This document shows positions 11,204 to 34,666 of a stretch of DNA of 44,635 bases, in pieces. This DNA is from Ruminococcus sp. (GTDB taxonomy: Bacteria > Bacillota > Clostridia > Oscillospirales > Ruminococcaceae). Position numbers and translations under genes: made by a program. Position 1 is the first letter of the stretch. Each line of letters starts with the position of its first letter. Below the pieces are notes generated by a model. That model saw only the letters and a program-made list of their open reading frames with translations, was not told the origin of the DNA and did not search any database. The stretch spans positions 1-44,635 of the forward strand of contig NZ_JAFUAG010000046.1 in the NCBI RefSeq assembly GCF_017464355.1, in the 5' to 3' direction.

Positions 11204-11238
11204 CAAAAAAGGACGGACAGCGTCATGCTGTCCGTCCT
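11204..11238 (-). terminator. Terminator of ppa
   Basis: An 11-bp perfect stem, AGGACGGACAG (11210-11220) with CTGTCCGTCCT (11228-11238), is followed on the minus strand by a run of U. It lies about 170 bases past the ppa stop, with the repeat copy in between. Confidence 0.85.
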
Positions 11239-11306
11239 GCGAATACCCGATATGGAACAAGCCGCCATTTTATACATCAGCAACGCATATCAGATATCTT
11301 TATCAT

Positions 11307-11404
11307 CTCAATTTGGTCGTGTATTGTTTCCCCCGCCGAAGGCGGGGGAAACAATACGAAAAAAGCCATTTCGTATCATCAGCAATACACTTCAAAATCG
11401 GGAG
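11307..11404. repeat. Palindromic repeat element, copy 1
   Basis: About 98 bp with imperfect 20-base inverted ends. A perfect hairpin lies inside: a 17-bp stem GTATTGTTTCCCCCGCC closed by GAA (11321-11357). A second copy in inverted orientation is at 18893-18992 and matches along its whole length with few changes. Here it starts three bases past the ppa stop, so it is part of the ppa 3' untranslated RNA. Confidence 0.85.
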
Positions 11405-11407
11405 TCT

Positions 11408-11938
11408 TTATTTACAGAAATTATCTATGTATCTGTCGATACAGCTTTCAATGACAGACACAGCTTCATCTACGCCCTTTACATCATCGATGACGGTATC
11501 CTTATTTTCCAGTGCCTTATACACTGTAAAGAAGTGTTTCATCTCATCGAAGATATGCTTGGGCAGCTCGCTGATATCCCTGTAGACGTTATAGGTAGGG
11601 TCATTGAGGGGTATGCAGATTATCTTCTCATCGGCGGCGCCGTTATCCATCATCATTATCATGCCTATGGGGTAGCAGTCCACCAGCGAGAGGGGCTCCA
11701 GGGTCTCCGAGCAAAGCACCAGCACGTCCAGGGGGTCGCCGTCCTCGGCATAGGTACGGGGGATAAAGCCGTAGTTTGCGGGGTAGTGGGTGGAGGTATA
11801 CAGTATCCTGTCCATTTTCAGCAGACCTGTTGCTTTATCCAGTTCATATTTTACTTTTGAGCCCTTGGGTATTTCCACCACGGCTGTGAACTTTTCTTTT
11901 GATATCGCCTTAGGCGAGATGTCATGCCATATGTTCAT
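11408..11938 (-). CDS. ppa: Inorganic pyrophosphatase, family I
   Basis: 176 residues from the ATG at 11938 (GGGAGGAAAAACA upstream); the frame extends to 11980 without a ribosome site. It hydrolyses pyrophosphate to two phosphates in the cytoplasm and so pulls biosynthetic reactions forward. The metal-binding signature [12 protein letters not shown] is intact, with other family parts such as [16 protein letters not shown] and [18 protein letters not shown]. It stands alone, with a repeat element and a terminator downstream. Confidence 0.93.
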
Positions 11939-12043
11939 TGTTTTTCCTCCCTGTTTCAATTTACGGACGGGGCTTTTCATGGGGCGGCGGCCGCTCGGCC
12001 GCGGCGGGCCGATGCCTTGGCATTCTGCGGCAGTTTGCTGTTC

Positions 12044-12601
12044 TTATTCGGCCATATACATTCCTGCGTCTGCCAGCAGTGTGGGCAGGTCGTACACTGT
12101 AATGCCGTCAGCCTCCACGGGGCTGAGTATACCCTCATCTTCGTCGGACATATAGTCCCTCAGGCTGTCTGCCTTTTCCTGCTGTGCCACACCTGCTTTG
12201 TCCAGCATTTCACAGAGCTTATCCGCTTTCACGCTGTCGCAGTAGGCTGTGAATTCCTGGAATTCCCCGAACATCATTTCGTCCTCATAAGGGTATCCCC
12301 CGAAGCCAAATCTTGAGGGGCCGTCATTGACAAGGATATCCCCGTAATGGTCAAGCAATGCCAGTGCGACTTTTTTCGTGCAGTCAAGTATATAGGTATC
12401 ATAGCAGTCCTCGCTGTCCTGTCTTGGCAGGTCGATAAAGAAGAACACCTGCTTTGGCAGCAGTGCTATATACTCTCTGGCACAGGTCAGTATCTGCTCA
12501 GCGCTGAGTATGCCGCTTACCTCCCTGCCCTTACAACTATAGCTGCTCCTGACTTTGTCTTCCCCCGGGGAATACACCCCTGCGCAAAGTTTAAAACTCA
12601 C
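12044..12601 (-). CDS. Uncharacterised 185-residue protein at the end of the acylation cassette
   Basis: GTG start with GGGAGGTG upstream. No recognised domain. The protein is soluble and acidic, with a clear alpha/beta start (MSFKLCAGVYSPGEDKVRSS), a central IALLPKQVFFFIDLPRQD strand region and an aromatic patch FGFGGYPYEDEMMFGEFQEF. It has no signal peptide. It follows the carrier-protein gene by 29 bases and has no promoter in between, so it is probably co-transcribed with the MBOAT-FkbH cassette. It may serve the cassette or simply be downstream; the sequence does not tell. Confidence 0.6.
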   Translation of the reverse strand: MSFKLCAGVYSPGEDKVRSSYSCKGREVSGILSAEQILTCAREYIALLPKQVFFFIDLPRQDSEDCYDTYILDCTKKVALALLDHYGDILVNDGPSRFGFGGYPYEDEMMFGEFQEFTAYCDSVKADKLCEMLDKAGVAQQEKADSLRDYMSDEDEGILSPVEADGITVYDLPTLLADAGMYMAE

Positions 12602-12630
12602 ACCGACACCTCCCTTCTCAGGTCAAGGGC

Positions 12631-12876
12631 TTACTTGCCCCTCTCCATTACTATCTTAAGCATATCGCCCACGTTGTTCATGCCCGATACCTCGCCCATT
12701 TTGAACTTCATACCGAACTCTTCCTCAACGGCGCCTATCAGTGTTATATGCTCGATAGAATCCCAGTCCTCGATATCATCTGCGGTGGTATTAGGTGTTA
12801 TGTTCAGGCTGTCGTCATCGAAAACATCTCTGAAAACATCGGTAAGTCTTGTCATTGTCTGTTTGAGAAGAAGCAT
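12631..12876 (-). CDS. Acyl carrier protein, dedicated to the FkbH cassette
   Basis: 81 residues. The 4'-phosphopantetheine attachment site is Ser40 in the motif DWDSIEHI, and the four-helix acidic ACP pattern is clear (EEFGMKFKMGEVSGMNNVGDML). GGAGGGATAAAA precedes the ATG. It lies two bases after the FkbH-like gene, so it should accept the acyl unit that enzyme makes. DSIEH is more like the carriers of D-alanylation and polyketide-type loading than DSL of fatty-acid ACP. A dedicated carrier beside an MBOAT gene suggests delivery of an acyl group to the membrane. Confidence 0.88.
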   Translation of the reverse strand: MLLLKQTMTRLTDVFRDVFDDDSLNITPNTTADDIEDWDSIEHITLIGAVEEEFGMKFKMGEVSGMNNVGDMLKIVMERGK

Positions 12877-12878
12877 TT

Positions 12879-14660
12879 TTATCCCTCCGAATTTACTTTT
12901 ATAGCCTTGTTGCGGTTTTCCTTGTAGTCACAGAGCGCCAGCTTCCATACGGTATCGCCGTTCTCATTCTCGCTCTGCTTATCAAAGCCCAGCTCCCCGT
13001 AGAACTGTGCCACCATTTTATTTTTTGCCGTGGGATAATAGTAGCCCACTATCTCGGTGATGCCTGCATTTGCGGCATTTTTCACCAACTCGTCCAGCAT
13101 GGCATATTCCATGCCCCTTTTCAGCACCCTGCATGACATGAGCCAAAGCTCCATATGCAGCACGCTGCCCTCGATACGGCCTATGACCTCAGATACCACC
13201 CCGTTATCGCCGAACTTGTCCTCCAGCTTGCCGTAGAGGGTGATGTACCCGCTGCTGTTCATGCGCTCTTCCATTTCAGTTACGGTGAAGCGCCTGGTGG
13301 TCAGGTTGAACTGGTTGCTCTTGCCTGCCAGCTGTGCCAGCCGCTGAACGTACATGGGCACAAAGGGCTTTATCTCGCCTTTCATTTCAAGGCTGAGCAG
13401 GTAGTCGTTGTAATCAGCGAAGCTTGCCTGCGCCTGTTTGCGCTTGACGTTCTCAGCGTACATCTCGTTGCGTTTCAGGTCGTCCGCCGAAAGGCTGACG
13501 GTTTCAAAGTACCCCGAACGGTCGATGACACGGATATAGTCCCCCACGTTATCCATATCGGGGGCAGCAAAGCCGCTGCCGCGGACTATCTCTCTTTCAG
13601 CGGGGTTATCGTCTGCCAGCACCATGGCTTCGGGCAGCAGGTCAAGCTCTTTGGCAGTATTTATCAGGTTCTCGCTCTTTGGCTCCCAGTTGGCCTTTAT
13701 CAGGGTGAAGTCCGCGGGCTTAAGGGCGCCCTCGGGGTGTTCAAGACCTGCCAGGGCATTTTCCTCCTCGTTCTTCGAGCATACTGTCAGCAGCACACCG
13801 ATATCTTTCAGACTTTTCACATACTCCTGCCACTGGTAGTAGGCCATAGCCTCAGCGGTCTCCTGGCCTATGGTCAGGTTCTCGGCGCCGTCATCGCCCA
13901 CTATGCCCCCCCAGAGGGTGTTATCCAGATCCAGTGCCAGCACCTTTTTGTTCCTGCCGCAGACAGCCTTTATTATCTTGGCCACCTCAAAGCAGAGGTC
14001 GGGTATAAAGCCGGTATTCAGGCTGTACTTGTAGAGGTACCAGTACTGGGGGTCGCTCCATTCGTCCAGGCCGCACACAGCGGAAAGGTAGTTTATATCA
14101 CACAGGTACACCCCGCTGCGGGCATTTATCTCCTCGGCCAGCCGCAGGTCAAGTCTGCCGACATAGTTGACCAGCCCTCTCGGGTCGCTGCCGCTGCTGT
14201 TGCCCAGCAGCCTTATGCTCGGCAGCTCGAAATTATTCTGTATCACAGGGCAGCCGAAGTTTGCTTTCAGGCTGTCCCACATCTGCACATAACCTGCTAT
14301 CTCGGTTTCAAGGCCCTCGCTTATCTCCTGCGCTGACATGGAAGGTGCAGGCCTGAAGGTCAGGTTGCGCAGGCTCGTGTGCAGGTATACCAGCTCGGGC
14401 TTGAAATCCAGCAGCTCCTGCGAGGGGAACAGCGCTTCCTGTCTGTACTGGTTGTATTCGCATTCGTAGAACTCCGCTTCAATGCCGTAGTTCCTGAGAA
14501 AAAGTCCCAGCACCGTCACGATATCTGCTGTAGTTGAGCCCCCCAGCACTGCGATGCGCTTTTTCATCACAGGGGCGCACTCCTCCTCCAGCCGCCGTTT
14601 CAGCGACTTTTTCTTTTTCATGATAAATTTGCTGTCAAAGGGATATTCAAGCTCTTTCAT
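12879..14660 (-). CDS. FkbH-like HAD-family enzyme (acyl-ACP loading), with GNAT-like C-terminus
   Basis: 593 residues. The middle is a HAD phosphatase domain: motif I LALDLDNTLWGGIVGDDG (Asp244, Asp246), motif II in LLTVCSKN, motif III/IV ADDNPAERE (about 349-357). The N-terminal 230 residues look like the SGNH-like part of long FkbH proteins (VLGGSTTADIV), and residues about 430-580 resemble a GNAT fold. Known FkbH enzymes take 1,3-bisphosphoglycerate, remove a phosphate and load a glyceryl unit on an ACP. The adjacent ACP gene fits this. The start lies three bases after the DHHW gene; the ribosome site is weak, so coupling is likely. The exact acyl unit here is inferred. Confidence 0.82.
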   Translation of the reverse strand: MKELEYPFDSKFIMKKKKSLKRRLEEECAPVMKKRIAVLGGSTTADIVTVLGLFLRNYGIEAEFYECEYNQYRQEALFPSQELLDFKPELVYLHTSLRNLTFRPAPSMSAQEISEGLETEIAGYVQMWDSLKANFGCPVIQNNFELPSIRLLGNSSGSDPRGLVNYVGRLDLRLAEEINARSGVYLCDINYLSAVCGLDEWSDPQYWYLYKYSLNTGFIPDLCFEVAKIIKAVCGRNKKVLALDLDNTLWGGIVGDDGAENLTIGQETAEAMAYYQWQEYVKSLKDIGVLLTVCSKNEEENALAGLEHPEGALKPADFTLIKANWEPKSENLINTAKELDLLPEAMVLADDNPAEREIVRGSGFAAPDMDNVGDYIRVIDRSGYFETVSLSADDLKRNEMYAENVKRKQAQASFADYNDYLLSLEMKGEIKPFVPMYVQRLAQLAGKSNQFNLTTRRFTVTEMEERMNSSGYITLYGKLEDKFGDNGVVSEVIGRIEGSVLHMELWLMSCRVLKRGMEYAMLDELVKNAANAGITEIVGYYYPTAKNKMVAQFYGELGFDKQSENENGDTVWKLALCDYKENRNKAIKVNSEG

Positions 14661-14663
14661 ATA

Positions 14664-17426
14664 CTATCCGCCAAGCTCCTCATCATCATTTTCTCCCGCG
14701 CTGCTGTCGCTGATATCCGAAGCCTCAGCCTCGGGCACAGGCTCTGCGGCGCTCTCAGCAGGCTCATCTGCCTGAGTGGGCAGCGGCGCAGCCGACTCCT
14801 GTATACGGTCGTTGTTTATAGCAGTTATATGCATCTCGGTGGAGCAGGAGGTTATGGAGATCGAGAACAGCAGGTCGGTACAGCCCACAGCACGGCAGAA
14901 GTCTATGGCGTTCTCATCAAAGTATCTGAAATCGCAGACATATATCTTCTCGAAGCTGTGTGTGAAGAAAGGCACCAGCGCATTTCCGAAGCTGTCCTTG
15001 AATATCACCAGCGTCCTGCCGTTATCGGCATCGGTGAGTATCTCGGTTATCTCCTCGTCCTTGCCCATTATTGCGGAGTAGCAGTTGACGCCCTCGGCAA
15101 AGTCAAAGAACAGCGAGCCTTCCTCACCGTTGGTGAAATCGGTGTTGTGGTAGAAAGTCCTGTACTCGTTATCGGGCTTGTAGTAGATAAAGGTATCGGG
15201 GTTAGCCTGCAGCTCGCTGTCGTAGTTGCTGTAAGCGTACATGGTACCCAGGAAGTCCTCTATCTTACACTCTTCATAGGTCTTTAGATCCGCATACTTT
15301 ACCCCCGCCTTTTCAGCGAAGACCTTGCCTGCATAGTAAGCACCCAGGGGCTGCCAGTGGTGGTCTGTGCGGGAGTAGATATACTCGTCCGTATGGGCGA
15401 GCAATTCGTCGTATACATCAACGTTTATTATGCCGCTGAGTTCGGAGGCTATGTTGTCGATGTTGTCCTTCTGGTCGGCAACGGTATCCTTGAAGTTGTT
15501 GGGCATATAGTAAGCCGCCGAGGTAGGTATGGTCATGTTGTACACGTTGACCTCGGGCATAGCTTCCTTGTACTTGTTTATGGTGTGGGCATACAGGGCA
15601 CCTGTTTCAAACATACCGTAGTAGCCTGCCACCGCACGGACGTCCTTGCCCTTGCCGAATACTATGACATCGCCTTCCATGACACCGTCATCAAGTATCT
15701 CGGGAAGCTTCACTACCTCCTCTTTCTTGGTGGTGGCAGTTTCAGCCTTGCTGTTATCGGACTTCTTGGTGGTGGTAGTGGTCATGGCCTTGGGGTCGGT
15801 GTTGGCAGTGACTGTGGTGACAGCTGCCAGCTTTTCCTCGTCCAGCTTTTCCTTTTCAGCGGTCTTGTGGGTACCGCTGACCTTTGCGCCGCCCAGGTCA
15901 ATGCCCTTCATGCGGTCATAGACTGCCGCGAACTGTTTCAGTTCTTCACGGCCGGGTATGGTATCGGTGAAATAGTCATCTATGCCCTTGGTATACTTGC
16001 CCGAGAAATAATCGGATATACTGAATTCAGGGAACTCCGCCAGGTTGCGGTTCTCGGAATTTATAAAGCCTGTTTCCCTCTCCATGAACAGCAGTGAGAA
16101 GAATATGACGAACACCACGCATATGCACATTATGCAGTTTATGAACTGGAACTCCAGCTCGTGGTTGAGGGACTTCTTCCGCTTTGACAGCTTGCGGGGC
16201 TTCATGATATACCGGGGCTCGACACCGTGGCGCTGAGCCTTATCGGTTATCAGGGTATGCTCGGTGGGGTCGCTGTTGTCGAACTCCTCCCGCACCCTGT
16301 CCTTTTTCTCGGCACGCACCTTTTTGAACATGGCCGAGAAATTATACTCGCCGTCCCCTGCGGGCTGCTCGTCTTCCTCGTCCTCATATTCCTCGTCTTC
16401 CTCTTCCCCGTCGGTCTCTTCTTCCGCTTCGGACTCAGCCTCGGGGACTTCTTCCTCTTCGGGAGTTTCCTCTGCTTCCTCCTCAGCTTCGTCTTCTTCG
16501 TAAAGTTCCTGCTTTTTCACCACCTTGTACTCGGCGGTCTTTTCAAGATCCTCCTGCACCGCGGCAGCTTCCTTTGCTGCCTCCTCGTCAGCAGGTGCTT
16601 CAGCCTTTTCGGACTCAGGCTCCTTTTCTTCCTTTTCGGGCTGCAGGTCGTCCAGCTTCATTTTCCACAGAGGCATTTTCAGGGATACCGAACGCTTGGT
16701 GGGGGTATCCTCTTCATAGCCCGACATATCCACCATGACCTTCTGCTTGTTGACAGGTCTCGGCAGTTCGCGCACCCTTGTGTCGCCCTCGGCGTCCACC
16801 CTCATGACAAGCTCCTGCTTGCGGGGCTTTTCGTTGAGCAGCGGCACTACCTGACGGGGCTTTCTGTCACCCAGGGCTTCGTCCACCAGCGCCCCGAAAT
16901 CGGGCACGGGCTCAGGCTCGGGGGGACGGGTCATAACGGGCAGGGGCGCTATGAAATCGGGAGGCAGCTGTTTTTTCTCCACAGGCTGAGGAACGGGTGC
17001 TGCCTGCTTCGGGGCCGCCTTTTTGGAAACGTAGCTGTTCTGCACAGGGCGGGGCTGCTGCACGGGGGCAGGACGCCTTTCGGGAACGCTTGCACCCTCA
17101 TCGGCGTCATCTATCCACACGCTCTTTTTCGGTTTCAGCACAGGGTTGTCCGTCCAGACGCTATGGCTGCGCTTGCGGCGGTCTGCCCTTATCTTATCGA
17201 CTATCTTATCATGCTCGGGGCTTGCTTCTGCCACGGGACGGTAATCTCTGGGCACAAAGCTTTTCAGCTCCCTTTCGGGGGCAGGGGCTGTTTTGCGCTT
17301 TACCTCGGGGGTGGGTATATCCTTGCCGCCCAGGGTAACGTTGTTCAGCGACTGCTCATAGGCTTTTGAGAGCGCCTCCAGGTCAACAGCGGGAGAGCGC
17401 CTGTTATTCTTTTTCATATCACTCAT
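14664..17426 (-). CDS. DHHW-domain (AlgJ-like) membrane protein with a very long disordered cytoplasmic arm
   Basis: 920 residues. Residues 1-425 are low-complexity: Pro/Lys-rich up to about 250, then a strongly acidic Glu/Asp block (about 262-355). One membrane helix follows (about 428-448, INCIMCICVVFVIFFSLLF), then an outside part. The outside part has ENRNLAEFPEFS at 458-469, a Thr/Lys-rich linker (about 536-568) and an SGNH-like DHHW domain with TDHHWQPLG (Asp688, His689, His690) and KDSFGNALVPF (810-820). The tail is Ala/Pro/Glu-rich. DHHW/AlgJ-type proteins work with MBOAT proteins to O-acylate exported glycans. The gene begins 14 bases after the MBOAT gene. Confidence 0.82.
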   Translation of the reverse strand: MSDMKKNNRRSPAVDLEALSKAYEQSLNNVTLGGKDIPTPEVKRKTAPAPERELKSFVPRDYRPVAEASPEHDKIVDKIRADRRKRSHSVWTDNPVLKPKKSVWIDDADEGASVPERRPAPVQQPRPVQNSYVSKKAAPKQAAPVPQPVEKKQLPPDFIAPLPVMTRPPEPEPVPDFGALVDEALGDRKPRQVVPLLNEKPRKQELVMRVDAEGDTRVRELPRPVNKQKVMVDMSGYEEDTPTKRSVSLKMPLWKMKLDDLQPEKEEKEPESEKAEAPADEEAAKEAAAVQEDLEKTAEYKVVKKQELYEEDEAEEEAEETPEEEEVPEAESEAEEETDGEEEDEEYEDEEDEQPAGDGEYNFSAMFKKVRAEKKDRVREEFDNSDPTEHTLITDKAQRHGVEPRYIMKPRKLSKRKKSLNHELEFQFINCIMCICVVFVIFFSLLFMERETGFINSENRNLAEFPEFSISDYFSGKYTKGIDDYFTDTIPGREELKQFAAVYDRMKGIDLGGAKVSGTHKTAEKEKLDEEKLAAVTTVTANTDPKAMTTTTTKKSDNSKAETATTKKEEVVKLPEILDDGVMEGDVIVFGKGKDVRAVAGYYGMFETGALYAHTINKYKEAMPEVNVYNMTIPTSAAYYMPNNFKDTVADQKDNIDNIASELSGIINVDVYDELLAHTDEYIYSRTDHHWQPLGAYYAGKVFAEKAGVKYADLKTYEECKIEDFLGTMYAYSNYDSELQANPDTFIYYKPDNEYRTFYHNTDFTNGEEGSLFFDFAEGVNCYSAIMGKDEEITEILTDADNGRTLVIFKDSFGNALVPFFTHSFEKIYVCDFRYFDENAIDFCRAVGCTDLLFSISITSCSTEMHITAINNDRIQESAAPLPTQADEPAESAAEPVPEAEASDISDSSAGENDDEELGG

Positions 17427-17440
17427 TATCGCTCACCTGC

Positions 17441-18862
17441 TTAAAATCTGAAATAGAGGAAGGGGTTGTTGGTGTTGCCTGACAGCAGCAGGCTGCTGGC
17501 CAGAAGTATCAGCGCATTGCACACAACTCCCGCAGACTGGAAAACATAGGCGCTGCCGGGCTTTTCAAAGGCCTTTTCGCGCAGCTTGGGTATAACGGGC
17601 AGCGAGAAGAATATGGCTGCGATGAACAGGAAGATATTTCCCATGAAGATATTCGCGGTGTAGGAGTCCACAAGGGCATTGCCGTTGAGACCGATGAGCC
17701 CTTTGAAAAATTTAACCAGCTGGGGCAGGCTCTCGAAATAGAAGATACCGAAGCCCAGGAAGATAACTATCTTGGTGTAGAAATGTGCCAGGGGCGCAGG
17801 CATTTTCTTCATGCGCTTTTTGCCTATCATCATCTCCATCATGATGAACAGGCCGTAGTAAAGTCCCCAGAAGATGAAGTTCCAGCTGGCGCCGTGCCAC
17901 AGGCCTGTCAGGAACCACACCAGGAAAAGTCCGCCGTATTTGCGCCTTTTGCCGAAAATGGGTATATACAGCACATAATCACGGAAGAATGAGCTGAGGG
18001 ATATATGCCACCTCTGCCAGAATTCGGAAATGGTCTTGCAGATAAAGGGGTATTTGAAGTTCTCATCAAAGTGGAAGCCGAATATGCGGCCGAGACCAAT
18101 GGCTATATCGGAATAGCCCGAAAAATCGAAGTAATACCACAGCCCCACCAGCACGGCGCCGTACCAGGTGCCCAGCACCGAAAGGGAGCCTATCGACTCA
18201 TACCCGCTTTTGGCATCACCGAAAAGCGATGTCACCACAGAGCTTAAGCTGTTGGCGATAAGCACCTTTTTGCCAAGCCCCAGTATTATCCTGGAGAAGC
18301 CCTCGGAGAAATCCTTGATAGTGGTCTTCCTGCTCTCTATCTCCTCAGCTATGACCGAGTAGCGCACGATAGGCCCTGCCACCAGCTGGGGGAACAGGGA
18401 AACGTACATCAGGAATTTCATGAAATTCCTCTGGGGCTTTACCTTGCCCCAGTAGCAGTCGATAGTATAGGAAATGGTCTGGAAGGTGTAGAAGGATATG
18501 CCTATGGGCAGCCGTATCTGCGGGACGTCAAGCTTAAGCCCCGTGACGGCATTGAGGTTCTCCACAAAAAATCCCGTATACTTGAAGCCGAACAGCAGCC
18601 CCAGGTTGAACACCAGCGACCATGCCACAGCCAGCCTGGCCTGCACGCCCTCGGGGTGCTTTTCTATTATGCGTCCATTGATGTAGTCCACCAGCGCCGA
18701 AACGCACAGTATGCTCACCCACACAGGCTCGCCCCATGCGTAGAACACCAATGAAAATACTATCAGCACCAGGTTGCGTATGGTAGCATTTCGTGTGATG
18801 AAATAGCATATCAGGCAAACAGGCAGAAAAAAGTACAGAAAAAGCAGATCTGCAAAAACCAC
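17441..18862 (-). CDS. MBOAT-family O-acyltransferase (AlgI/DltB type)
   Basis: 473 residues with about ten membrane helices, GTG start with TAGGAGAA upstream. The catalytic His323 lies in TGLWHGASWNFIFWG and the second conserved site in FWQRWHISLSSFFRDY (His286). This is the AlgI layout; such proteins pass an acyl group from a cytoplasmic donor to a partner or glycan outside. It is the first gene of the cassette, behind a strong promoter and a 187-base leader that contains repeat copy 2. With an ACP and an FkbH enzyme downstream, the donor is likely an acyl-ACP, as with DltB and its carrier DltC. Confidence 0.92.
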   Translation of the reverse strand: MVFADLLFLYFFLPVCLICYFITRNATIRNLVLIVFSLVFYAWGEPVWVSILCVSALVDYINGRIIEKHPEGVQARLAVAWSLVFNLGLLFGFKYTGFFVENLNAVTGLKLDVPQIRLPIGISFYTFQTISYTIDCYWGKVKPQRNFMKFLMYVSLFPQLVAGPIVRYSVIAEEIESRKTTIKDFSEGFSRIILGLGKKVLIANSLSSVVTSLFGDAKSGYESIGSLSVLGTWYGAVLVGLWYYFDFSGYSDIAIGLGRIFGFHFDENFKYPFICKTISEFWQRWHISLSSFFRDYVLYIPIFGKRRKYGGLFLVWFLTGLWHGASWNFIFWGLYYGLFIMMEMMIGKKRMKKMPAPLAHFYTKIVIFLGFGIFYFESLPQLVKFFKGLIGLNGNALVDSYTANIFMGNIFLFIAAIFFSLPVIPKLREKAFEKPGSAYVFQSAGVVCNALILLASSLLLSGNTNNPFLYFRF

Positions 18863-18892
18863 GGTATATTTCTCCTAATCATTAATTTATTT

Positions 18893-18992
18893 CTCCCAAT
18901 TTTGAAGTGTATTGCTGATGATACAGAATAGCTTTTTTTTCGTATTGTTTCCCCCGCCTTCGGCGGGGGAAACAATACACAACCAAATTGGG
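18893..18992. repeat. Palindromic repeat element, copy 2, in the MBOAT operon leader
   Basis: About 100 bp, the inverted counterpart of 11307-11404. It has the same 17-bp perfect hairpin (18942-18978, loop TTC) and the same imperfect 20-base ends. It lies between the promoter at 19056-19084 and the GTG at 18862, so it is transcribed as a structured leader of the acylation operon. Confidence 0.85.
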
Positions 18993-19055
18993 ATATTTAT
19001 TTTTTCTCCGTCTGACCCTTTCGACATTTTCCGCCGAAATCGGCCACATACAGTT

Positions 19056-19084
19056 ATTATACCACCTATTTCCCCCAAGGTCAA
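19056..19084 (-). promoter_or_regulatory. Promoter of the MBOAT/FkbH cassette
   Basis: On the minus strand TTGACC (19079-19084), a 17-base spacer and a perfect TATAAT (19056-19061). The start of transcription would be near 19049, giving a leader of roughly 187 bases. Confidence 0.78.
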
Positions 19085-33477: not shown

Positions 33478-33527
33478 CAAAAAGCACAGGATAAGCGTGA
33501 AGTGATCTGCTTTCCTGTGCTTTATTT
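33478..33527. terminator. Bidirectional terminator between tautomerase and DHHW lipoprotein genes
   Basis: AAAGCACAGGA (33481-33491) pairs with TCCTGTGCTTT (33513-33523), with A-rich and T-rich flanks on either side. It serves two converging genes. Confidence 0.85.
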
Positions 33528-34666
33528 TACTTATACATATTCTCCTCGATGAGGGATATCTTGTCGTAGCTGCTCGAAGACGCTGCGCCCAGGGCGAACA
33601 GCACATCTGTGGCGCCTACGTTGTGGGCAAAGTCCACCGAGTTTATATCGAAGAACCTGTTGTCACAGAGATATATCTTGCTGAAAGACGAGGTCAGGAA
33701 AGGCACCAGTGCATTCCCGTAGCTGTCCTTGAAGATGACCAGCACACGGCCGTTGTCACAGGCGGTGTCCACTTCAAGGATAGTTTCGTCAGTTCCCACG
33801 AATACGGTGTAGCTGGCCGAGATATCATTGTCCTCATAGAACAGTGAGCCCTCATAGCCCTCGCCGAAGTAGGTATCGTGGTACAGGACTTTCAGCTTAT
33901 CCAGGTCAGCGGGCTTGTAGTAGGTGAATTCATCGGGGTACTCCTCCAGAGGATAAATGCCGTTCACCGAATAGAATGCCCCCAGGTAGCCCTCACGCTT
34001 TACTTCCTCATAGCTGTCAAACTTTGCATAGTCCACACCTGCTGTTTCCTCAAAGGTCTGTGCGGCATAGAAGGCTGCCAGCGGCTGCCAGTGGTAGTCG
34101 GTGCGGGAATAGAGATACTCAGCCTTGTGGGCTTCAAGTACATCGTTTATGGGCACCCCCTTGGCTGAGGTCATCATGGAGTACACCTCATCTGCGCACT
34201 CTTTCTGGTCGGGGTAGCTGTCTTTAAGCTCGCTCGGGATATAAAGCGCCTCCGAGGTCGGTATCATCATCAGGTAGGTGTTGACATTGGCGCCCACACT
34301 GTCAGCGAAGACATCAACGCAGTCCGCCAGATACCTGCCGTTCTCGCTGCTGTAGTAGTATTCCTCCATGGCACGCACCTGAGGTGTGCCGGCGTAGGCC
34401 AGTATACAGCCGTCGATGTATTCGTAGGTCTCCTCCTCGGGGGCCGCTGTGGTGGTCACGGGAGGTGTGGTGGTGGTAGTGGTGGCGGCCTCGGTCGTGG
34501 TGGTGGTCACAGCCTCAGTTTCCTCCTCGGGGGTGGTGTCGGCATCTGTCGGCTGAGTCTTCGGGGTAACAGCCGTCTGCACGCCCTCGTTCTGGGATAT
34601 GGTATTTCCGCAGCCCGCCAGCAGCAGCATTGCCGCAGCGCAGGCTGATATCAGTTTTTTGTTCAT
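33527..34666 (-). CDS. DHHW-domain lipoprotein, paralogue of the cassette protein
   Basis: 379 residues. A lipoprotein signal (LLLAGC, Cys19) is followed by a Thr/Pro/Glu-rich linker (about 38-80), then a DHHW-type SGNH-like domain. The motif reads TDYHWQPLAAF (Asp190), Tyr replacing the first His, and the C-terminal KDSYGNALVPF matches KDSFGNALVPF of the 920-residue protein. The two are alike across their last 280 residues (for example YSRTD-HWQPL, then YKP, then SLF). It is likely anchored on the outer face of the membrane. No MBOAT gene is adjacent, so it may share the partner at 17441-18862 or act alone. Confidence 0.85.
   Translation of the reverse strand: MNKKLISACAAAMLLLAGCGNTISQNEGVQTAVTPKTQPTDADTTPEEETEAVTTTTTEAATTTTTTPPVTTTAAPEEETYEYIDGCILAYAGTPQVRAMEEYYYSSENGRYLADCVDVFADSVGANVNTYLMMIPTSEALYIPSELKDSYPDQKECADEVYSMMTSAKGVPINDVLEAHKAEYLYSRTDYHWQPLAAFYAAQTFEETAGVDYAKFDSYEEVKREGYLGAFYSVNGIYPLEEYPDEFTYYKPADLDKLKVLYHDTYFGEGYEGSLFYEDNDISASYTVFVGTDETILEVDTACDNGRVLVIFKDSYGNALVPFLTSSFSKIYLCDNRFFDINSVDFAHNVGATDVLFALGAASSSSYDKISLIEENMYK

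Follow-up and report, generated by a model that had tools for sequence, protein, structure and literature searches.

Introduction

Three kinds of described system come close to the subject of this study, an operon in which genes for an MBOAT O-acyltransferase, a DHHW (SGNH-like) transferase, an FkbH-like HAD enzyme and an acyl carrier protein (ACP) follow one another in the genome of a gut-type Ruminococcus sp. (GCF_017464355.1); the window analyzed is the whole contig NZ_JAFUAG010000046.1, 44,635 nucleotides long. The first is the Dlt system, in which an MBOAT works with a dedicated phosphopantetheine carrier and then with an SGNH-type partner outside. The second comprises PatA/PatB and PatA1/PatB1 (AlgI-type), whose MBOAT bears a WHG histidine and a C-terminal FXYXXF and is adjacent to an SGNH/DHHW partner with Ser-His-Asp. 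The hexapeptide FXYXXF serves as acyl shuttle in PatA and DltX, PatA uses acetyl-coenzyme A (acetyl-CoA), and MBOAT-SGNH systems are said to have no carrier protein (PMC12148441; this and the other papers cited by PubMed Central number are drawn on in excerpt). The third is formed by the FkbH/ACP pairs of polyketide pathways (FK520, tetronates, bafilomycin), in which FkbH (TIGR01686) stands beside a standalone ACP. For cyanobacterial aeruginosins and suomilides, excerpted accounts have FkbH load glycerate on a nonribosomal peptide synthetase (NRPS) and propose that an MBOAT acylates a sugar.

The Ruminococcus operon shares with Dlt the sequence of MBOAT, dedicated carrier and outside partner, but its loader is FkbH where Dlt has the adenylating DltA, its partner is a DHHW protein rather than DltD, and its shuttle tyrosine lies on the MBOAT instead of on the DltX microprotein (small open reading frames were not searched for DltX). 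Among the operon genes, to which the search for DltA was confined, Pfam and NCBIfam models find none, and DltD (PF04914) was not found in the window's genome, which is 91% complete. With PatAB it shares the MBOAT motifs and the type of adjacent partner, but it adds a carrier encoded in the operon. Compared with the polyketide pairs, the operon holds no ketosynthase, dehydrogenase or methyltransferase, its 593-aa FkbH has an FkbH_N domain, and the acyl group apparently goes to the MBOAT. The best reading of these comparisons appears to be a hybrid, with FkbH loading as in polyketide pathways, transfer from carrier to MBOAT as in Dlt, and a tyrosine shuttle with an SGNH-type transferase as in PatAB. 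The gene set is real, widespread and coherent. We think it somewhat probable that it encodes a route for acylation across the membrane that draws on a carrier of its own, with FkbH as the loader and MBOAT-SGNH delivery. Gene order, intact residues, co-occurrence and a donor-side switch were computed; the chemistry of the pathway is what we infer.

A leftward operon with intact catalytic residues

On the minus strand, the genes for the MBOAT (17441..18862, 473 aa; PF03062, 6.8e-24), the DHHW protein (14664..17426, 920 aa; PF14286, 6.7e-49), the FkbH-like enzyme (12879..14660, 593 aa; TIGR01686, 9.9e-78; PF21211, 6.3e-12) and the ACP (12631..12876, 81 aa; PF00550, 3.1e-5) lie in one leftward operon with intergenic gaps of 14, 3 and 2 bases. 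An original prediction, made from the DNA alone, had described such a four-gene operon with gaps of 2 to 14 bases, and the positions of the open reading frames together with the Pfam and NCBIfam matches confirm it. The prediction presented 12044..18862 as a four-protein set; the four genes are there, but the interval also holds a fifth, orf5.

The MBOAT carries the WHG histidine (His323), a C-terminal FLYFRF that fits FXYXXF and contains Tyr470, and the donor-side residues Trp138, Gln283 and Phe303. Among MBOATs of at least 440 aa from loci with the same four-gene order (type A), the WHG histidine is conserved in 40/40, which bears out the catalytic histidine proposed earlier, and the C-terminal FXYXXF is found in 39/40. 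Although the nearest solved sequences are DltB chains (2e-24), the protein scores 142 bits against the DltB equivalog TIGR04091, whose cut-off is 375, and thus falls outside that equivalog. The acyl group probably crosses the membrane on the tyrosine of the MBOAT's own FXYXXF, a point that the original prediction had missed; carrier and MBOAT-borne shuttle occur together in this gene set.

Glu, Lys and Pro abound in the first 430 or so residues of the DHHW protein, a region that could be a cytosolic tether; it is present only in some relatives, whose total lengths range from 461 to 920 aa. One transmembrane stretch is predicted near residues 428-446. The outer domain holds D688-H-H690-W691 and Ser812, and D688, H690, W691 and S812 are kept in 55/55 sequences. 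The protein scores 167.6 bits against PF14286 (DHHW family; cut-off 25), and its matches among solved sequences are PDB 4nzk (1.2e-76) and PatB1 of B. cereus (5v8d, 1.5e-7). The label AlgJ-like given to it at first did not hold: the AlgX model stays below its cut-off (22.7 vs 26.5 bits), and we dropped an AlgJ identity since the PF14286 and PatB1 matches fit a DHHW protein better. Residues 2-353 of the 4NZK chain, whose source species is E. siraeum (PMC9487903), align without visible difference to the DHHW protein of genome G132 (L048, 12173-13327). That gene lies two genes upstream of FkbH-ACP; unlike in the window's operon, the two MBOATs found in G132 lie elsewhere in the genome.

The FkbH-like protein comprises FkbH_N, HAD-IIIC and a C-terminal part with Cys510 in the motif MSCRV. 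It scores 261.5 bits against TIGR01686 (cut-off 146.65), and its nearest solved sequence is BF1531 (PDB 3slr, 5.8e-48). The DxDxT aspartates (D244 and D246), Lys328, Asp350, Asp351 and Cys510 are invariant in 138/138 sequences after three duplicate loci were dropped. The score, the DxDxT motif and the MSCRV cysteine uphold its assignment as an FkbH-like HAD enzyme, as the PF00550 score of the fourth protein (24.6 bits; cut-off 20.8) and its phosphopantetheine serine, Ser40, uphold that of the carrier. This serine is kept in 122/122 ACPs. The nearest solved sequence to the ACP is PDB 2lml, named 'putative acyl carrier protein' (1.1e-17), which we take to be the Geobacter carrier GmACP3; the title of a paper on GmACP3 reportedly names a putative role in lipopolysaccharide synthesis. 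A distant FkbH gene at L099 (7145-8353) is separated by two gene positions from one for 2,3-bisphosphoglycerate-independent phosphoglycerate mutase, which belongs to the same part of glycolysis as the proposed FkbH donor.

Recurrence of the gene order in relatives

An FkbH protein search matched 75 of 197 genomes of the family. Besides the window's own, surroundings were read from 60 of the 74 other matching genomes (61 loci with the window), the 14 left out being mostly partial, contig-edge or weaker matches. A set from named genomes took the best 80 of at least 570 confirmed loci; with three loci common to both sets, 141 were read. Genes at the relatives' loci were called by a crude script, and recurrence counts are lower bounds because 36/141 loci (10/61 family, 26/80 named) are cut by contig ends.

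The order MBOAT-DHHW-FkbH-ACP was found at 21 of the 61 family loci; two others have DHHW without MBOAT, five have an MBOAT downstream of FkbH, and 33 have neither within six genes. Among the best 80 named loci there are 21 of type A, six with DHHW without MBOAT, 28 with an MBOAT downstream, ten with one upstream and 15 with neither. Recurrence in 42/141 loci means that the order is not due to chance. Named carriers of type A include Ruminococcus flavefaciens 007c (L135) and Neglectibacter sp. X58 (L133), and Eisenbergiella tayi (L129) is a named example of an MBOAT downstream of FkbH. The ACP gene directly follows FkbH at 54/61 family and 66/80 named loci. Some of the other FkbH-ACP loci carry a different MBOAT (type B).

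Co-occurrence of FkbH with one MBOAT clade

The presence of any MBOAT is useless as a test of co-occurrence: all 57 genomes chosen for it have one, 12 of them without FkbH. We compared an MBOAT search of the same 197 genomes, ranked by match, with the FkbH matches. In the top tier of 32 genomes, those that match the MBOAT best (E-values up to 2.2e-160), 29 have FkbH, as do 3 of the next 38 (2.3e-159 to 1.2e-130), a contrast with a Fisher p of 5e-13 in a test that ignores relatedness and with a tier cut drawn after viewing the list. The three genomes of the top tier that lack FkbH are G113, G192 and G016, the last of which is 55% complete.

A tree of 117 MBOATs put all 40 type A sequences on one side of a branch with a support of 100 (Shimodaira-Hasegawa-like approximate likelihood ratio test, SH-aLRT) and 32 unlinked sequences on the other. 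A second tree, for which 20 further MBOAT loci were read, contains a 49-member clade (SH-aLRT 99) that includes 40 FkbH-linked sequences. Five more members come from genomes with FkbH elsewhere (G162, G071, G103, G132 and G015, the FkbH match lying at a contig edge in G071 and G015), and in two (G188, G108) an ACP gene comes immediately after the DHHW gene while the only FkbH is a distant one. The remaining two, without FkbH, are from the incomplete genome G016 and from G065, which sits on a long branch. Sister to this clade stand G113 and G192, which have MBOAT-DHHW and no FkbH.

A donor-side residue switch in the coupled MBOATs

We compared 47 coupled MBOATs with the two sisters and with 17 uncoupled relatives, of which 8 belong to the 32 unlinked paralogs and 9 come from MBOAT-DHHW loci that lack FkbH. 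Position 138 is Trp in 47/47 coupled sequences but Arg in 15/17 uncoupled and both sisters; position 283 is Gln in 47/47 but Arg in 17/17 and both sisters; and position 303 is Phe in 45/47 but Gly in 17/17 and, again, both sisters. In the full set of 32 unlinked MBOATs, Arg or Lys occupies position 138 in 29 and position 283 in 28, and Gly occupies position 303 in 30. The 41 FkbH-linked type B MBOATs, from another part of the tree, have an aromatic residue at 138 in 29 cases and a hydrophobic one at 303 in 31. Taking linked against unlinked sequences overall, 138 is aromatic in 76/88 vs 2/46, 303 hydrophobic in 77/88 vs 2/46, and 283 non-basic in 61/88 vs 6/46; the sole unlinked sequence with all three features is from the incomplete G016.

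A short IPxGG loop is present in 37/46 uncoupled MBOATs, 4/41 of type B and 0/47 coupled type A, so that the operon's MBOAT differs from the uncoupled type in lacking both this loop and the two arginines. The number of residues between the two MBOAT histidines was rejected as a mark of type A coupling: it is 37 in 47/47 type A and 57 in 30/39 measured type B sequences, but among the 42 of 46 uncoupled sequences that could be measured it is 40 in 33 and 37 in 9.

Carrier-fed DltB likewise is without both arginines and has a Phe at the aligned donor-side places, a further likeness to Dlt: the aligned residues are Asp142, Asn286 and Phe314, although the alignment near Phe314 is gapped and less sure. 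DltC docks on DltB at Met302, Val305, Ile306, Met309, Lys312 and Arg317, at the entrance of the donor tunnel (PMC11035591), and these docking residues fall in the same cytosolic stretch as the aligned Phe314. Together, these comparisons suggest that the MBOAT donor site, formerly of a kind suited to CoA, has come to suit a carrier.

Proposed mechanism and points against it

In the mechanism that we favor, FkbH would load a three-carbon (C3) unit, by the precedent of its family most likely glyceryl from 1,3-bisphosphoglycerate, on the adjacent ACP as a thioester, with release of phosphate. The loaded ACP would then dock on the MBOAT from the cytosolic side; the donor site there, judging by its residues, would now be of the carrier type. 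Using His323, the MBOAT would move the acyl group to its own Tyr470 in the FXYXXF shuttle, as in PatA and DltX. Lastly, Ser812 of the DHHW protein would take the acyl group and esterify an extracytoplasmic polymer, in the manner of PatB1 and PatB. The acceptor may be a surface glycan, and this, like the identity of the glyceryl group, is said with reserve. The coupling from FkbH through ACP and MBOAT to DHHW, proposed in the original prediction, draws support from the conserved order, the co-occurrence within the clade, the retention in a single genome of the parts of split operons, and the donor-side change.

Several observations weigh against this coupling, the first two of which the original prediction had missed. 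The MBOAT-DHHW pair occurs without FkbH: in G113 and G192, MBOATs with 64 and 63% identity stand beside a DHHW gene in FkbH-less genomes, and G113 keeps, in the same order, orf5 and the pyrophosphatase gene that follow the operon's ACP gene. The pair therefore does not need FkbH, and its strict dependence on FkbH is ruled out. FkbH and ACP seem to have joined a pre-existing MBOAT-DHHW pair that is viable alone, which counts against a strictly four-part machine. Conversely, many FkbH-ACP pairs lack an adjacent MBOAT; the predicted co-occurrence of the four families in order stands at the 42 loci described above but fails at 48/141, where neither MBOAT nor DHHW lies near FkbH, and FkbH-ACP therefore also serves something else. 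Because the three MBOAT positions came out of a column scan that looked for contrast, it says little that such positions exist, and the test lies in other sequences; there, position 283 is non-basic in just 14/41 type B MBOATs and also in 6/46 uncoupled ones, which makes Gln283 the less general mark. Tree-based independent pairs number four supported and eight in all, no sign test on them reaches 0.05, and with so few pairs we set this test aside. In the DHHW protein, Tyr700 is replaced by a small residue (Ala in 42/46) and Glu811 by Asp (45/46) in coupled sequences vs 9/9 uncoupled; these changes do not follow FkbH, because both FkbH-less sisters have them (Gly and Asp), and the two pocket residues were rejected as a mark of coupling. 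Finally, the scan of window genes turned up no glycosyltransferase.

The acyl group and alternative readings

The group carried is likely glyceryl: probable production of glyceryl-ACP has been described for the FkbH-like proteins encoded in the tetromadurin and bafilomycin clusters (PMC3679948 among the sources). Exopolysaccharides are known to bear glyceryl groups, an example being the L-glycerate of gellan (PMC4432689). It is unlikely, if a serious competitor, that the same machine carries other cargo, with FkbH or unlinked enzymes making another C3 derivative, such as lactyl or pyruvyl, ahead of the MBOAT. Other FkbH-ACP loci do have MaoC, short-chain dehydrogenase/reductase (SDR) or transketolase-like genes, which suggests that the loaded unit is probably remodeled in relatives. 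MaoC genes lie near FkbH at 14/47 loci with neither MBOAT nor DHHW, 9/32 with an MBOAT downstream and 3/10 with one upstream (26/89 together), and SDR genes at 12/47, 3/32 and 2/10. Within reach at type A loci, however, there is MaoC in 0/41 and SDR in 1/41, and plain glyceryl is for that reason the simplest reading.

In those other loci, MaoC and SDR enzymes or the transketolase-like halves could turn glyceryl into lactyl or larger units. Four loci (L117, identified by Pfam; L119, L128 and L161, by profile or layout) have FkbH followed by two transketolase-like halves and a MaoC dehydratase, and beyond these come genes for ACP and MBOAT; such a layout might build larger acyl groups on the carrier. 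Others, among them L088, L116 and L123, have FkbH-ACP-MaoC-SDR sets, after some of which comes a protein of roughly 330 aa that matches nothing in Pfam; these sets are a possible lactyl-ACP route.

It is improbable that the MBOAT-DHHW pair is an ordinary O-acetyltransferase fed by acetyl-CoA, with FkbH-ACP an unrelated neighboring pathway. PatA and PatB1 relatives do transfer acetyl (PMC12148441, PMC9487903), and such a reading would accommodate both the MBOAT-DHHW pairs without FkbH in several family genomes and the many FkbH-ACP pairs without a nearby MBOAT. Against it, the co-occurrence within the clade persists even where the genes lie apart, the ACP stays beside MBOAT-DHHW at L226 and L227 though FkbH is not adjacent, and the donor-side change is found in the coupled clade but not in the FkbH-less sisters. 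That FkbH-ACP feeds glyceryl to a cytosolic sugar or lipid transferase, the MBOAT-DHHW pair merely modifying the same product, has very little probability: C. jejuni flagellin carries di-O-methyl-glyceric acid (PMC3068675) and the glycosylation region of this species contains cj1302, a gene with an fkbH domain (PMC7099621), the two being presumably linked, but the scanned operon and window genes include no other acyltransferase, no glycosyltransferase and no polyketide synthase (PKS) or NRPS gene, and the genome has two phosphopantetheine-binding (PP-binding) proteins. With just these two, a PKS/NRPS role for FkbH-ACP is unlikely. The genome encodes one FkbH.

Flanking features

Downstream of the ACP gene, on the same strand, lie orf5 (12044..12601, 185 aa) and, 63 bases beyond it, an inorganic pyrophosphatase gene (11408..11980; PF00719, 1.6e-60). 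A promoter-like site before the operon (TTGACC-17-TATAAT with TG, 19056..19084) and a terminator-like stem of 12 pairs with a T run after the pyrophosphatase gene (11210..11238), both on the minus strand and both consensus matches only, enclose these six genes. The pyrophosphatase gene is probably co-transcribed with the operon and is a candidate member of the machine. Orf5 has no match in Pfam, NCBIfam or PADLOC (FkbH likewise has none in PADLOC). It is present at 4 of the 60 family loci that were fetched, and at three of these it comes immediately after the ACP gene; lying in the same operon in close relatives, it is also a candidate member. Its AlphaFold2 model is confident (mean predicted local distance difference test score, 91.9; 5 sequences).

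A stem-loop repeat of about 105 bases occurs in inverted copies at both ends of the operon (11305-11404 and 18890-18996), one of them in the leader before the MBOAT gene. The genome has at least 40 near-full copies with 92-100% identity (40 of 139 candidates were scored); the repeat has no Rfam match, and Rfam at gathering thresholds returned nothing over the whole window. The operon's surroundings in the window include genes for hexuronate catabolism, an ABC transporter, a two-component system, SecA, enolase and Spo0A. A second DHHW protein is encoded at 33527-34666 with no MBOAT gene adjoining it in the window. The genome encodes three further MBOATs, of which one has a GDSL gene nearby and another adjoins a DHHW gene.

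Significance

Among the matches listed in open-licence PubMed Central, a scope that leaves subscription papers mostly outside, no description of this pathway was found; it would join three known half-pathways into one absent from the literature searched. The sister genomes G113 and G192, together with the solved, uncharacterized 4NZK, make the pathway testable now. If true, it would provide a candidate donor for glyceryl esters on bacterial polymers and a way to test, at the level of single residues, what makes an MBOAT take CoA or a carrier as donor. We regard as evenly balanced the broader proposal that Clostridia possess a novel form of surface acylation, in which a glycolytic intermediate loaded by FkbH would be exported by an MBOAT that has switched from CoA to a carrier, with three residues recording the switch, and in which sister loci with MaoC and SDR genes or transketolase halves would give lactyl or longer hydroxyacyl groups on the cell surface.

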